Part shown: positions 38,603 through 43,150 of the stretch, in pieces
Layout: each line of letters starts with the position of its first letter
Position numbering within the stretch: the first letter of the stretch is position 1
Assembly: GCF_000484535.1 (NCBI RefSeq)
Contig: NC_022600.1
Span: 1-64,000 of the forward strand
Direction: 5' to 3'
DNA from: Gloeobacter kilaueensis JS1
GTDB taxonomy: Bacteria > Cyanobacteriota > Cyanobacteriia > Gloeobacterales > Gloeobacteraceae
Length of the DNA stretch: 64,000 nt
Made by a program: the position numbers and the translations under genes
The notes under the pieces: model-generated
Database searches by the model: none
Told to the model about the DNA's origin: nothing
Seen by the model: the letters and a program-made list of their open reading frames with translations, nothing else

Positions 38603-39862
38603 CTATAGTGCATCTTCAAACTTAAACAAGATGTTGAGATATTTATCTTTTCTTCGTACAGTAAGACGCACCTTATTGTCTGGAAGTTGTTGAAGCTTGC
38701 TAACAACCTCAACACTATTGAGTTTTTTGAATGGCTTGCCATCGATCGCAACTATTCGATCACCTGTTCTCAAGCCAGAACGCTCAGCCAGGCCATTTCT
38801 GGTAACAGAACTTACTTTGCCATCTGTTAGATCGACATACATACCAAGAACGACGTAGTGAGATACTTGATCAAAACGGGCACTCTTTTGCAAAGCTACT
38901 TGCTGACGCTTGAAATCAAAGGTCACATTAAATCGAGAAAGAATGTCATTTCCGATCACGCCAGATGCGCTGTTTGCATCAGTTGACTTCTCATTTTCAG
39001 AGACTAATTCTATCAAAGGCTTTTTAATCTCGAATTGGCCAATCTTGAGCACCTGCGCTCGCGCTCGTTCAGTGTACAACACTCCTCCAAGACTTGATTT
39101 GGAAGAGGGTATCTTGCGCGAATAAAGTTTATATAGGCCATTTTTTTCGACAAATGGTCTATATAAAATTAGTGAGCTTGAAGAGCCAGTATCAACGTCG
39201 AGTTGAGCAGGAATACCATCAATCTCACCCTCAACAATAGGCATCCCTGTTGGGCCTTGAGTAAACGGAATGACAGCCACATCGCACCCGGAGAGCGACC
39301 TATCAAAATCGCTAAAAGTGGCACTTAGGTTTACATAATCTAGTTGAACAAGAAAATCTTGAAAAAAACTTACTCCAAGGATGCCGTCAATTTTTGACAA
39401 AAATGAAGAGCGCGACATAGCGGATGCTGGAAGAATGCGCAAAACAACATTCCTCAGCTTTAGATTGCCGATCTCAAGCTCATTCGCGATTGATTCTCCG
39501 GAGATCTGAGTAGGTAGACTACCATCAGTTTCGACTGAAAAAGGATTGGCTAGTATGCGAAGCGGTAGGTGAAGCTTCTGCACGACATTCTCGGAAACAG
39601 AGTTGAATGTAGCGCCCGTATCAAGGACAAAGTTGAACGGCTCCTGTCCATTTATTTTTGTACTAAATGCAGCCAAGCCAGCAGGAGAAGAATGAAAGGG
39701 AACAGTTATAGTACGCTCATTCTTAACTTGCTCAGCGTTAGAAACTCTGCATTCCGCAACTGAAGCACGCTCTGCTGCAAATACGAAAGTTGCTAAAAAC
39801 GATAAGACGAGAACCGTTGCAAGAATTTTAGGTATGAAGACAAGATCGAGTCTATTTCTCAC
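38603..39862 (-). CDS. Exported retropepsin-like aspartic protease with PDZ domain
   Basis: A 419-residue protein. After a signal peptide (to about residue 30, ATFVFA) come two retropepsin-like repeats with active-site triplets D81-T-G (DTGATFNS) and D224-T-G (DTGSSSSL), so a single chain can form the usual two-lobed site, and a C-terminal PDZ domain (about 330-419, RSGLRTGDRIVAIDGKPF). It probably cleaves or binds proteins outside the cytoplasm. Its base use is AT-richer than its neighbours (ATA, AGA, TTA codons), a sign of transfer. Related clan AA proteins occur in Bacteroidetes and myxobacteria. ATG is at 39862. Confidence 0.85.
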   Translation of the reverse strand: MRNRLDLVFIPKILATVLVLSFLATFVFAAERASVAECRVSNAEQVKNERTITVPFHSSPAGLAAFSTKINGQEPFNFVLDTGATFNSVSENVVQKLHLPLRILANPFSVETDGSLPTQISGESIANELEIGNLKLRNVVLRILPASAMSRSSFLSKIDGILGVSFFQDFLVQLDYVNLSATFSDFDRSLSGCDVAVIPFTQGPTGMPIVEGEIDGIPAQLDVDTGSSSSLILYRPFVEKNGLYKLYSRKIPSSKSSLGGVLYTERARAQVLKIGQFEIKKPLIELVSENEKSTDANSASGVIGNDILSRFNVTFDFKRQQVALQKSARFDQVSHYVVLGMYVDLTDGKVSSVTRNGLAERSGLRTGDRIVAIDGKPFKKLNSVEVVSKLQQLPDNKVRLTVRRKDKYLNILFKFEDAL

Positions 39863-39953
39863 AATTATTCTGTCCAGTCAGAGCGCTGCCTCAAGAGTTA
39901 TCAACCTCTGCAGCATCGGGCTGCTATATGCCATCATCGCCAGTTGAATATTC

Positions 39954-40052
39954 CTACTCATTGTTGAAATCGGCAGCAGCATACGGCTCATCGTCACCGC
40001 CGTCACCAGGGAAATATTCCTGCCCGTCTTCGGAGAGATACTCTTCATCCAT
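39954..40052 (-). CDS. Acidic 32-residue peptide behind conserved leader cassette
   Basis: A frame from ATG 40052 to TAG 39954 encodes MDEEYLSEDG, then a stretch rich in D, E, G, Y and F, ending FNNE. AGGTG lies five bases upstream. The start and its 5' region match those of the gene starting at 43064 (MDKEFLG), so both derive from one ancestral leader. No homologue is recognised. Its small size, net negative charge and aromatic residues could fit a precursor or regulatory peptide; this is speculative. Confidence 0.5.
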   Translation of the reverse strand: MDEEYLSEDGQEYFPGDGGDDEPYAAADFNNE

Positions 40053-40133
40053 GACACACCTGCTGAAAGGGTTGCTATCTGAGCAATGTAGACCGGCAAG
40101 CCAGAAGGGTCAAGAACTATTCGGGGGAAATCT
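40048..40133 (-). promoter_or_regulatory. Promoter/leader cassette, copy 1
   Basis: On the minus strand the order is AGATTTCCCC, AATAGTTC, TTGACC (-35), 17 bases, TACATT (-10), AACCCTTTC, GCAGGTG and the ATG at 40052. The blocks recur at 43060-43150 in the same order and spacing (spacer 17 against 18). It launches the 32-residue acidic frame and lies directly after the terminator of the transporter genes. Confidence 0.65.
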
Positions 40134-40135
40134 AT

Positions 40136-40159
40136 AAAAACTGCACCTGTTTCAGGTGC
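40136..40159 (-). terminator. Intrinsic terminator of the iron-type transporter operon
   Basis: On the minus strand GCACCTG-AAA-CAGGTGC (40159-40143) is a perfect 7-bp hairpin followed by AG and TTTTT (to 40136). It is 54 bases after the permease stop. Confidence 0.85.
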
Positions 40160-40212
40160 GGTTGGCGTGGGGTGCGAAAGGTTCTCCAGGCGCGACTTAT
40201 CGCTGAGAATCG

Positions 40213-41265
40213 TCAATCCAGGGGCGAGCGGTTTCGGGTGCGCAGGATAACGGCGACGACGACCGGTGCGCCGATGAGGGCAGTGACGGTGTTGAGCGGG
40301 AGCACCCCCTGCCCCCCTCCGGCGAGCTGGCAGACTAGATCGGCGATTAGGGCGAGCAGTGCGCCCATGAGGATCGAGGCGGGCAAGAGCAGGCGGTGAT
40401 CGGCGGTGCGCAGAATACCCCGACACAGGTGGGGCACGGCGATGTCGAGAAAGGCGACCGGCCCGCAGAAGGCGGTGACGCCACCGGCCAGCAGGGCAGT
40501 GGCGGCGATGATCCCAAGGCGCAGCCTTGCTGCTCTGAGGCCAAGGGCCTGGGCCTGCGCTTCGCCTAAGAGCAACAGGTTCAAAGGCCGGGCGAGGGGC
40601 ACCAGGGCAACAAGCCCGAGGCCAACCACCGGGACGAGCACCGACAGTTGGGCCGGGCTCACGCCACCGAAACTCCCGGCGCTCCAGACGAGGTACGTCT
40701 GCACCTGCTCGGGAGCGGCCCGGTAGACAAGCAGGTTGACCAGGGCACCGGTGACGTAGCCGCTCATCAATCCCAGGAGCAAGAGTGTGGCGACCCCGCG
40801 CAGCCGCCGCGCCACCACCAGCAGTACAACCAGTACGGCAGCACCGCCCAGGCTCGCCGCTGCTACCGACCCGAGTTCCGCGAGGCGCGTGAGTCCGGCG
40901 AACCAGCCGCCCGTGCCGCTTCCGAGGACGACCAAGGCAACGCCCAGGCTGGCACCGCTGCTGATGCCCAGAGCAAAAGGACCGGCGAGGGGATTGGCAA
41001 AAAGCGCCTGCAGCGCCAGGCCACTCGCCGCCAGAGCCGCCCCCGCCAGCGTCGCGGCCATTGCCCGTGGCAGTCGAAATTCGAGCACGATCGTCGCCCA
41101 GGTCGCTTTTTGGGGCACGCCGCCTGTAAGGATCATGAGCACGTCCTGCAGAGGGATAGCCACCGTTCCCAAAGCAAGATCAAGAAGGATAGCGATAAGC
41201 ACCAGGAGGCCGAGGGCAGGAAAAGCCCAGAGGGCAATTGCAGGAAGCCTCCACGGTTTTTTCAT
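40213..41265 (-). CDS. FecCD-type ABC transporter permease
   Basis: A 350-residue integral membrane protein of the FecCD/BtuC family, which imports iron-siderophore complexes, heme or cobalamin. About ten membrane segments are seen, with the family motifs GLALQALFANPLAGPFALGISSG (shortened here to its core ALFANPLAGPF) and FCGPVAFLDIAVPHLCR near the ATPase-docking loop. ATG at 41265 overlaps the stop of the binding-protein gene (TGATG), so both are one operon. The matching ATP-binding protein gene is missing from this operon and window. Confidence 0.92.
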   Translation of the reverse strand: MKKPWRLPAIALWAFPALGLLVLIAILLDLALGTVAIPLQDVLMILTGGVPQKATWATIVLEFRLPRAMAATLAGAALAASGLALQALFANPLAGPFALGISSGASLGVALVVLGSGTGGWFAGLTRLAELGSVAAASLGGAAVLVVLLVVARRLRGVATLLLLGLMSGYVTGALVNLLVYRAAPEQVQTYLVWSAGSFGGVSPAQLSVLVPVVGLGLVALVPLARPLNLLLLGEAQAQALGLRAARLRLGIIAATALLAGGVTAFCGPVAFLDIAVPHLCRGILRTADHRLLLPASILMGALLALIADLVCQLAGGGQGVLPLNTVTALIGAPVVVAVILRTRNRSPLD

Positions 41266-42527
41266 CACTTCAGGGGCCGGTAATAGACCAGCTCGTAGCC
41301 CGGCAGCCGCTCCGGATGAAAGATGCGGATGAGGTCAGAGAGAATCAAATCGGGATTGACGATCCCGCCCTGCCAGTAGTCGTTGCCGCCAGCTGGATTG
41401 AGGCGCAGGTTGTCGTTGTAGACGCGCCGCTGCCGCACAGCCCGCAACCGGTTATAGCGGGAATCTTCGGCAATCACATCCTGGATGCTCCGCCAGTTGA
41501 GGCTGCCACCCAGCCAGAATTCGGCGTCGGCAGCCCGCTCGTAGACCGCTTCAAAACTCAGGGGAACGCCGCCGGTCTCGGGATTGGTGGCCCAGAGATA
41601 ATCTGCCCCGGCATCGGCAAGAAAGCGAGCCAGATAGCTTTTGCCGCCGGGAACGTACCAGCTGTCCTTCATCGCAAAACCAGCGAAGACGGTCGGGCGG
41701 TGGGTGATTCCGCGCACGAGGCGGGCGCGCTCGCTGTAGCGCTGCACGATACCGTCGAAGAGGCGGTTGGCGAGGGCTTCCTTGTTAAAAAAAAGAGCCA
41801 GAAACTTGAGCCATTCGCTGCGGCCCAGGGGCGTATTCTCGCGGTACTCGGCGTTGAGGACGACTTTGAGGCCCGAGGCCGTCAGCCGGGGAAAGTCGTC
41901 GGTATCGGGGGAGATGGCAAAGGCAGTGACCAGTTGGGGCTGCAATTCTAGAAGCCGCTCGACATCGATCGCCGCTTCTTTGCCGACGGTGGCAATGCGT
42001 CCGCTGCGGAGGCGCTGCTGAATCGCCTCGCTGTGGATAAGTTCGGGATCGGCGACGGCTACCAGAGTGTCGAGCAATCCGAGCTTTTCGAGAAGTGGCA
42101 GGTGGGTGGTGGAGAGAACGGCGACGGAGGAAACCGGCACCTGGATTACCCGAGCCCTCGGGAAGCCGGCAGGTACCGGTGTACCGCACTGCACCAGAAC
42201 GTAGCGCAGCGGCTCTACAGCGCCCCGCCAGGGATCGCGGACGGTGACGATCTTGTAGTGCCTGTGGTACTCGACGCTGAAGGCGCGGGCAAAGCGGGGG
42301 GCACTCTTGTCAGAAAAATAATCCACCCGCCCGTCGAAGCGGCTGACACAACCCGCAGCAGATCCCGGCACCGTCGCGCGCAACCAGAAGGCGATGACCA
42401 GAACCAGAACAGAAGCAACCCAACTTGCGACAGCAGTAGATTTCAAGCGGACAACCGGCGTCTGGACCGCTACCAACTTAGCTGCTCGCCCATCGACCAG
42501 GCAGAACGCCCTGCGACCGCTGGGCAA
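41265..42527 (-). CDS. ABC transporter substrate-binding protein (iron-siderophore/cobalamin type)
   Basis: A periplasmic-binding protein of the PF01497 class, up to 420 residues. After a hydrophobic segment (ASVLVLVIAFWL) there is a possible lipobox GSAAGC, then SVAVLSTTHLPLLEKLGLLD, FARFL-type ADAGADYLW and the C-terminal LPGYELVYYRP. It delivers ligand to the FecCD permease. The start is unsure: TTG 42527 is the longest; TTG codons at 42476 and 42446 are shorter and none has a good ribosome-binding site. The ligand is probably an iron chelate, by family. Confidence 0.85.
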   Translation of the reverse strand: MPSGRRAFCLVDGRAAKLVAVQTPVVRLKSTAVASWVASVLVLVIAFWLRATVPGSAAGCVSRFDGRVDYFSDKSAPRFARAFSVEYHRHYKIVTVRDPWRGAVEPLRYVLVQCGTPVPAGFPRARVIQVPVSSVAVLSTTHLPLLEKLGLLDTLVAVADPELIHSEAIQQRLRSGRIATVGKEAAIDVERLLELQPQLVTAFAISPDTDDFPRLTASGLKVVLNAEYRENTPLGRSEWLKFLALFFNKEALANRLFDGIVQRYSERARLVRGITHRPTVFAGFAMKDSWYVPGGKSYLARFLADAGADYLWATNPETGGVPLSFEAVYERAADAEFWLGGSLNWRSIQDVIAEDSRYNRLRAVRQRRVYNDNLRLNPAGGNDYWQGGIVNPDLILSDLIRIFHPERLPGYELVYYRPLK

Positions 42528-42587
42528 TTGCAGGTACTTTTTAGAATGGCAGCCCGTCAGCCCACAACAGCGATCGCAGGCGCGGTA

Positions 42588-43064
42588 CTACTGCGGGCAC
42601 TCCCCCGGCTTCGATCTGTCACCGTTGTACACTTCTTTGTAGCTGACACTGAAATTGAACGCCCGGTTCTGGTCGTCCGGGTTGGTATTGGTATTGAGCC
42701 AGGGCCGCTGCTGGCTGGTGAGATCGGACGAATAGGTGCGCACCTCGGTACTGGTGGTTGTCGAGCCACCGGCGTAGGAACGGCAAACCGCATCCTTCGC
42801 CTCTGCCTGGGGAAGAACAGCACTTTTGCGCCATTTCTGCCACGGCAGCGATTCCCAGGGTTGCTGTGTCTGAGCAGAAGGGTTGCCGGACGGGGTGGCA
42901 CGCAAAGGAGCGGGCAGCAGGCAAAATAGACAACCAGCCGCAAGCAGGACAGCCTCACAGCGTTTGCGGCGACTATATTGAAGTATATATCTTAACTCGA
43001 CCCGAATAAGGCTGCCGACTGGGCGCTCCTGCCCACGGACGTTGCCGAGGAATTCTTTGTCCAT
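42588..43064 (-). CDS. Unknown exported protein behind leader cassette
   Basis: A 158-residue protein of unknown function. ATG at 43064 has AGGTG upstream and is the only usable start. The first 30 residues (MDKEFLGNVRGQERP) precede a late hydrophobic segment (CEAVLLAAGCLFCLLPA, about 37-53), unusual for a signal peptide; the mature part is polar with tyrosine-rich AFNFSVSYKEVYNGD. The late signal suggests that a short leader gene has fused in frame to an exported protein gene. It is the first gene of the transporter operon. Confidence 0.6.
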   Translation of the reverse strand: MDKEFLGNVRGQERPVGSLIRVELRYILQYSRRKRCEAVLLAAGCLFCLLPAPLRATPSGNPSAQTQQPWESLPWQKWRKSAVLPQAEAKDAVCRSYAGGSTTTSTEVRTYSSDLTSQQRPWLNTNTNPDDQNRAFNFSVSYKEVYNGDRSKPGECPQ

Positions 43065-43150
43065 AATGCACCTGCAGAAAGGGTTACTCCTGTACTGCGC
43101 AGGCTAGACCCGCGCCTCCGGGAGCGTCAAGAACTATTTAGGGGAAATCT
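43060..43150 (-). promoter_or_regulatory. Promoter/leader cassette, copy 2
   Basis: Minus-strand blocks AGATTTCCCC, AATAGTTC, TTGACG, 18-base spacer, TAGCCT, AACCCTTTC, GCAGGTGCA and ATG match copy 1 at 40048-40133. It would drive the exported-protein gene and the iron-type transporter genes. Confidence 0.65.

Follow-up and report, generated by a model that had tools for sequence, protein, structure and literature searches.

A conserved promoter, leader and N-terminus at the start of a family of acidic low-complexity proteins with linked partner genes in Gloeobacter kilaueensis

Gloeobacter is a deep-branching cyanobacterial lineage that lacks thylakoids, and to our knowledge little is known of how its members interact with their neighbours. 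The G. kilaueensis JS1 genome poses a small puzzle in this setting: why do two look-alike blocks of about 100 bp, both on the minus strand, stand at the start of a 32-codon acidic open reading frame (ORF) and of an exported protein with an unusually late signal segment, with an iron-type transporter between them? The blocks lie at 40048–40140 (copy A) and 43050–43150 (copy B) of the window analysed here, that is, positions 1–64000 of the 4,724,791-bp single-contig genome (G000). A preliminary description had proposed that they were mobile or duplicated leaders donating a promoter and an N-terminus, possibly with a regulatory peptide or one resembling a ribosomally synthesised and post-translationally modified peptide (RiPP). 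Judged by sequence comparison, what repeats is the conserved start region, comprising promoter, 5′ leader and N-terminal codons, of a paralogous family of acidic low-complexity proteins in Gloeobacter, whose members end in one of two kinds of C-terminal module, each linked to its own kind of partner gene. We are confident of the statements on family, promoter, partner linkage and erosion taken together; that confidence does not extend to the further step of reading the proteins as effectors.

Pairwise alignment of copies A and B bears out the blocks and motifs as first described, with the common runs AGATTTCCCC, AATAGTTCTTGAC, GGTCTA, AACCCTTTC, GCAGGTG and ATGGA..AAGA on the minus strand. Each block runs from a TTTCCCC box through -35 (TTGAC) and -10 elements and a ribosome-binding stretch into the first codons. 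The likeness spans the box to about codon 6, reaches in weaker form as far as the GQE residues of codons 10–12, and ends 5′ of the box, where the flanks are unrelated. The window contains three instances of the pattern TTGACN14-24GGTCTA, where 0.03 would be expected. The genes between the blocks encode a FecB-like binding protein and a FecCD permease, as the mention of an iron-type transporter had implied.

The genome-wide search called for in the preliminary description extends the pair to seven strong copies, each of which starts a member, or the remnant of a member, of one gene family. BLAST of copy A against the genome returned four places: copy A itself, copy C (G000:1239383-1239566, 74% over 187 bp, E 7e-28), copy D (G000:3997470-3997559, E 1.4e-13) and copy B (E = 8e-7). 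Protein and neighbourhood evidence added copies E (3.357 Mb), H (2.213 Mb) and I (3.936 Mb). A profile built from these seven sequences alone regained all of them (E 1.6e-24 to 3.7e-19) and gave no other convincing match in the genome, 150 of the 714 first-look candidates having been scored. As the seven themselves served to train it, finding them again was built in, and the informative results are the absence of others and the matches in congeners. The next match (L124, E = 0.04) falls within the coding sequence of an unrelated gene, another (L125, E 0.26) has no family gene, and the profile search of the genome found no start-region copy upstream of a non-family gene. Weak matches (E 0.001–0.03) fall exactly at homologous genes in G. 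violaceus (G001) and a further Gloeobacter congener (G003). Copy F is a family member by its protein, with a weakly recognisable promoter region.

Over the first ~31–36 codons, copies A and C differ far more at synonymous (pS 0.74–0.82) than at nonsynonymous positions (pN 0.20–0.24), with one codon indel in the alignment, and copies I and H show a like excess of synonymous differences (0.75 against 0.30). Because synonymous differences far exceed nonsynonymous ones in both pairs, the start region evolved as protein.

The promoter is arranged alike throughout. In all seven copies TTTCCCC stands 9–11 bp 5′ of TTGAC[ACG]; the -10 element, read at a spacing of 17 bp (18 in copy B), is TACATT, TAGCCT, TAAATT, TACATT, TACCTT, TACCTT or TACTTT; and the ATG follows ~32 bp after it, behind a stretch resembling [AG]CC[CT]TT...AGGTG. 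The spacing of box, -35, -10 and ATG is constant across copies, and a consensus promoter scan independently picked up the promoter of copy A. That the blocks are no more than a common sigma70 consensus with some chance likeness, the refuting case foreseen in the preliminary description, is refuted: the core does fit TTGACN-17-TANNTT, but the similarity extends over ~100 bp, taking in the upstream box, the leader and codons, reaches E-values of 1e-24, and recurs in only seven copies. A structured RNA leader or riboswitch was also considered and rejected, the leader folding no better than its shuffles (z-scores 0 to 1). The elements in the window are as follows.

40124..40130, minus strand: cassette A upstream box TTTCCCC, 10 bp before the -35 element, present in all seven copies.
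40085..40113, minus strand: cassette A sigma70-type promoter, TTGACC - 17 - TACATT, 32 bp before the ATG.
40053..40077, minus strand: cassette A 5′ leader with AACCCTTTCAGCAGGTG, the ribosome-binding stretch.
43141..43147, minus strand: cassette B upstream box TTTCCCC.
43101..43130, minus strand: cassette B promoter-like elements, TTGACG - 18 - TAGCCT.
43065..43089, minus strand: cassette B 5′ leader with AACCCTTTCTGCAGGTG.

The proteins that follow are acidic and of low complexity, 265–657 aa in length with net charges from -30 to -84; copies C, D, E, F and H encode 355–657 aa with charges of -61 to -84, and congener members 265–393 aa. Type 1, comprising copies C, F and H with seven congener genes, ends in a module with two invariant cysteines flanking a long glycine zipper (6–13 GxxxGxxxG motifs per module, against 0.2–0.8 in shuffles). 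Type 2, comprising D, E and I, ends in a module of ~90 residues with C-x4-GG-x-T and a second cysteine at the very end. No model in Pfam or NCBIfam covers either module or the membrane partner of type 1, and a search of solved structures returned generic glycine-zipper and PDZ matches and nothing else. Among the genomes sampled, the type-2 module was seen in G. kilaueensis alone, and the type-1 module with its partner in the genus Gloeobacter alone. A wider spread of type 1 was considered and rejected: other matches among 386 genomes of the phylum cover essentially the glycine-zipper stretch alone, and none of the six inspected adjoins a three-helix partner. A scan by named organism returned only a metagenome-assembled genome of Aphanocapsa lilacina, with an apparent remnant near insertion sequence genes. 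Copy H is the longest member observed (657 aa; L103:6140-8113), and a 130-aa three-helix protein with a hydrophilic tail begins 8 bp after it. Copy I encodes a similar protein interrupted by a single in-frame TAG at codon 23, after which 337 codons are open; this UAG (GAG TAG GAC; L100:6499-6501, G000 near 3936500, minus strand) falls on a Gln codon of H.

Each module type keeps its own company. The type-1 partner is a protein of 84–130 aa with about three hydrophobic segments, which begins 2–15 bp downstream in nine of ten type-1 genes; at the tenth (G003, 774 kb) a partner homologue lies just downstream, inside a longer frame. Extra copies of the partner form arrays at C, at F and at a tandem locus in G003. 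Downstream of copy F, three ORFs for small membrane proteins (88, 80 and up to 115 aa; L102:7900-8710) come one after another. At the G003 tandem pair (L107:6539-9695) the first ~120 residues of the two acidic proteins are about 80% identical and the C-terminal modules strongly divergent, and the second locus carries both its own partner (45% identical to its neighbour's) and a near-copy (94%) of the neighbour's partner. This layout resembles immunity arrays. Type 2 is paired with a protease: the genome's four close retropepsin-PDZ paralogues each stand immediately behind a type-2 member (A, D, E and I), and an alignment of five homologues shows both D-[ST]-G sites retained in all four, the window copy included. 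The C-termini of all five homologues also carry a short [EK][DEN]-x-L motif at the very end (window 38603–38617). A homologue in a more distant genome (G004; L113:4125-5360) has no adjoining acidic gene; standing alone, it indicates that the protease can exist without the acidic family.

What, then, is the 32-codon ORF? The region downstream of cassette A reads:

39954..40052, minus strand: 32-codon acidic ORF, most likely the truncated 5′ end of a type-2 family gene; aligned to C and D, with its TAG at C's Gln codon.
39863..39953, minus strand: apparent acidic-gene remnant after the stop, EYSTGDDGI*QPDAAEVDNS*, the rest deleted.
38603..39862, minus strand: exported tandem retropepsin-type aspartyl protease with a C-terminal PDZ domain (PF13650 x2, PF17820).

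The UAG, at codon 33, corresponds to a CAA (Gln) codon of copy C, and the protease begins 91 bp past the stop, where copy D has ~1,150 bp. Alignments of this kind make it most likely that copy A is a truncated and deleted type-2 gene, its 32-residue product being the stump of a family member and not a new peptide signal. A nonsense truncation and a deletion would have left a promoter that now serves mainly the protease, the type-2 partner of copy A, which is intact. The first UAG of copy A stands in the same GAG-TAG-GA context as that of copy I. The two stops may be independent Gln-to-stop mutations at a common E-Q-[DE] motif or, less likely, sites of read-through.

The acidic 32-residue reading frame of the preliminary description is real, then, yet acidic coding runs on past its stop codons, and its suggested role as a regulatory or RiPP-like peptide fares poorly. 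A functional small product, such as a signal or RiPP-like precursor, would explain why promoter, ribosome-binding stretch and start are all intact, and pN/pS for the A–C pair is about 0.25–0.3 over copy A's codons. We nonetheless consider it improbable: that constraint may date wholly from before the truncation, the 32 codons align to the start of acidic proteins of 420–450 aa and stop at a paralogue's Gln codon, with aligned members running ~390–420 codons further, and acidic coding continues through two more stops before the remainder of the gene is gone. Moreover, RiPP precursors are short and have an enzyme nearby, whereas full members here are 265–657 aa and no RiPP-type enzyme gene was seen in the neighbourhood of copy A. 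In this way a lone ORF of 32 codons, left over from a family member, can be mistaken for a peptide gene.

Copy B raises the complementary question of how a family start came to precede a transporter. Its features are:

42588..43064, minus strand: 158-aa protein with an MDKEFL..GQE N-terminus, a late signal or transmembrane segment (~35–57) and a two-cysteine, type-2-like tail.
41265..42527, minus strand: FecB-like periplasmic binding protein (Peripla_BP_2), 60 bp past the copy B gene.
40213..41268, minus strand: FecCD-type permease.
40143..40159, minus strand: intrinsic terminator GCACCTG-AAA-CAGGTGC-AGTTTTTA, dividing the B-fecB-fecCD unit from cassette A (fold z = -4.2).

The late position of the signal, already remarked upon, is real, because no in-frame ATG, GTG or TTG lies between codon 1 and the hydrophobic segment. 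Scored against a leave-one-out profile of D, E and I alone, the tail ranks 3rd of 2001 (with 2,000 shuffles), and like those proteins it ends with a cysteine close to the C-terminus. We find moderate support for deriving copy B from a type-2 gene by deletion or fusion. Since fecB starts 60 bp on and no terminator was found between the two genes, the cassette probably drives the fecB-fecCD transporter as well; its promoter would then serve a short exported protein and a transporter together, and a family promoter can remain ahead of an iron transporter. The homologous fecB-fecCD pair in G004 follows a methyltransferase-like gene and lacks the cassette, so the link to iron transport appears local. 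Iron regulation as the common theme of the cassettes was rejected on the same ground, the other cassettes not being near Fec genes. Homologues of FecB were found in the more distant G004 and G011 and not in three congeners, and the window's fecB-fecCD genes have no adjacent ATPase gene.

The notion of a leader that donates a promoter and N-terminus therefore survives in part, in the repeated start region itself and in its plausible promoter role ahead of fecB-fecCD at copy B. Its mobile form, in which a small element would bring a promoter and start codons to unrelated genes by inserting ahead of them, might draw on the scatter of start-region copies through unrelated neighbourhoods of the genome, and on copy B, whose start is joined to an exported protein ahead of transporter genes that lack the cassette in a relative. 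It is very improbable all the same: no strong copy is solitary or stands upstream of an unrelated gene, copies A and B share no flanks, no terminal repeats or other element ends were noticed, and diverged homologous start regions sit at family genes in the congeners.

If the block marks a gene family, what might the family do? A near-constant N-terminus, a divergent C-terminal module, a tightly linked partner and partner arrays together resemble effector-immunity systems. We therefore suggest, tentatively and with somewhat less than even confidence, a polymorphic effector-immunity family whose modules act on neighbouring cells, while membrane partners neutralise them or retropepsin-PDZ proteases control them. 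In its least certain steps, the type-1 glycine zipper would insert into neighbouring cells' membranes, with self-immunity conferred by the membrane protein encoded next to it; for type 2, the acidic protein, once exported, would be processed or inactivated by the protease. Several points weigh against this account. No adjacent secretion genes were recognised by eye among the ORFs beside type-1 loci, and the full-length acidic proteins have no N-terminal signal peptide or identified export route. Glycine zippers are found, too, in membrane and outer-membrane proteins that do no harm. The type-2 proteins lack any hydrophobic segment, and the protease paired with them is not the usual kind of immunity protein. 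The promoter of copy F is not clearly recognisable (profile E 0.44), and the similarity of copy B's tail to type 2 is modest, two of the 2,000 shuffles scoring higher. Searches of Pfam, NCBIfam, PHROGs and PADLOC gave no match to a secretion, trafficking or toxin domain.

The acidic proteins might instead be surface, adhesive or hydration proteins, disordered and possibly cation-binding, anchored by their glycine zippers and assembled or processed by their partners. Their strongly acidic low-complexity composition would suit matrix or desiccation roles, a PDZ protease suits the maturation of surface proteins, and there are weak matches to the sortase-associated protein PdsO; a polymorphic C-terminus behind a near-constant N-terminus, with partner arrays, is however more typical of toxin-immunity systems, and we hold this alternative to be slightly less probable than the effector reading. 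Whichever function applies, a common promoter and N-terminus tied to two types of module and partner define a compact gene set whose modules are absent from Pfam and NCBIfam. Should the effector reading hold, a thylakoid-less cyanobacterium would possess an effector-immunity family in which acidic N-termini, under one promoter type, carry zipper or two-cysteine modules.

Type 1 finds its closest likenesses among glycine-zipper toxins. The Cdz bacteriocins of Caulobacter (CdzC/CdzD with CdzI; PMC5380434) carry an extended GxxxGxxxG pattern in the presumed killer, and their small three-transmembrane immunity protein CdzI, encoded close by, is matched in position and hydropathy by the putative type-1 partner. 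CdzC and CdzD are 84–86 aa and accompanied by a type I secretion pair (PMC5380434), whereas the proteins here are 265–657 aa with a long acidic N-terminal region and a conserved cysteine pair, and no type I secretion genes were recognised by eye beside type-1 loci, the rest of the genome not having been searched. Glycine-zipper toxins of the type VII secretion system (T7SS), EsxX and TelE (PMC12744356, PMC10434224), also combine a conserved N-terminal part with a zipper near the C-terminus and have polytopic membrane immunity proteins, sometimes several, as partners, comparable to the membrane-protein partners here. They differ from the present family in that no LXG domain or T7SS genes were seen here, the N-terminus is acidic and of low complexity, and the host is a Gram-negative cyanobacterium. 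The type-2 partner shares two D-[ST]-G half-sites, a PDZ domain and an export signal with clan AA retropepsin-type proteases (PF13650 / PF17820), and is distinguished by its consistent pairing with an acidic family gene in the G. kilaueensis genome, the G004 homologue standing alone. Polymorphic toxin systems in general (survey PMC3482391) have known trafficking or toxin domains, none of which was matched here; they share with this family a conserved N-terminus, divergent C-terminal modules and linked partners, and the defining combination of conserved N-terminus and divergent module is what we find in the G003 tandem pair and in the two modules that follow one cassette.

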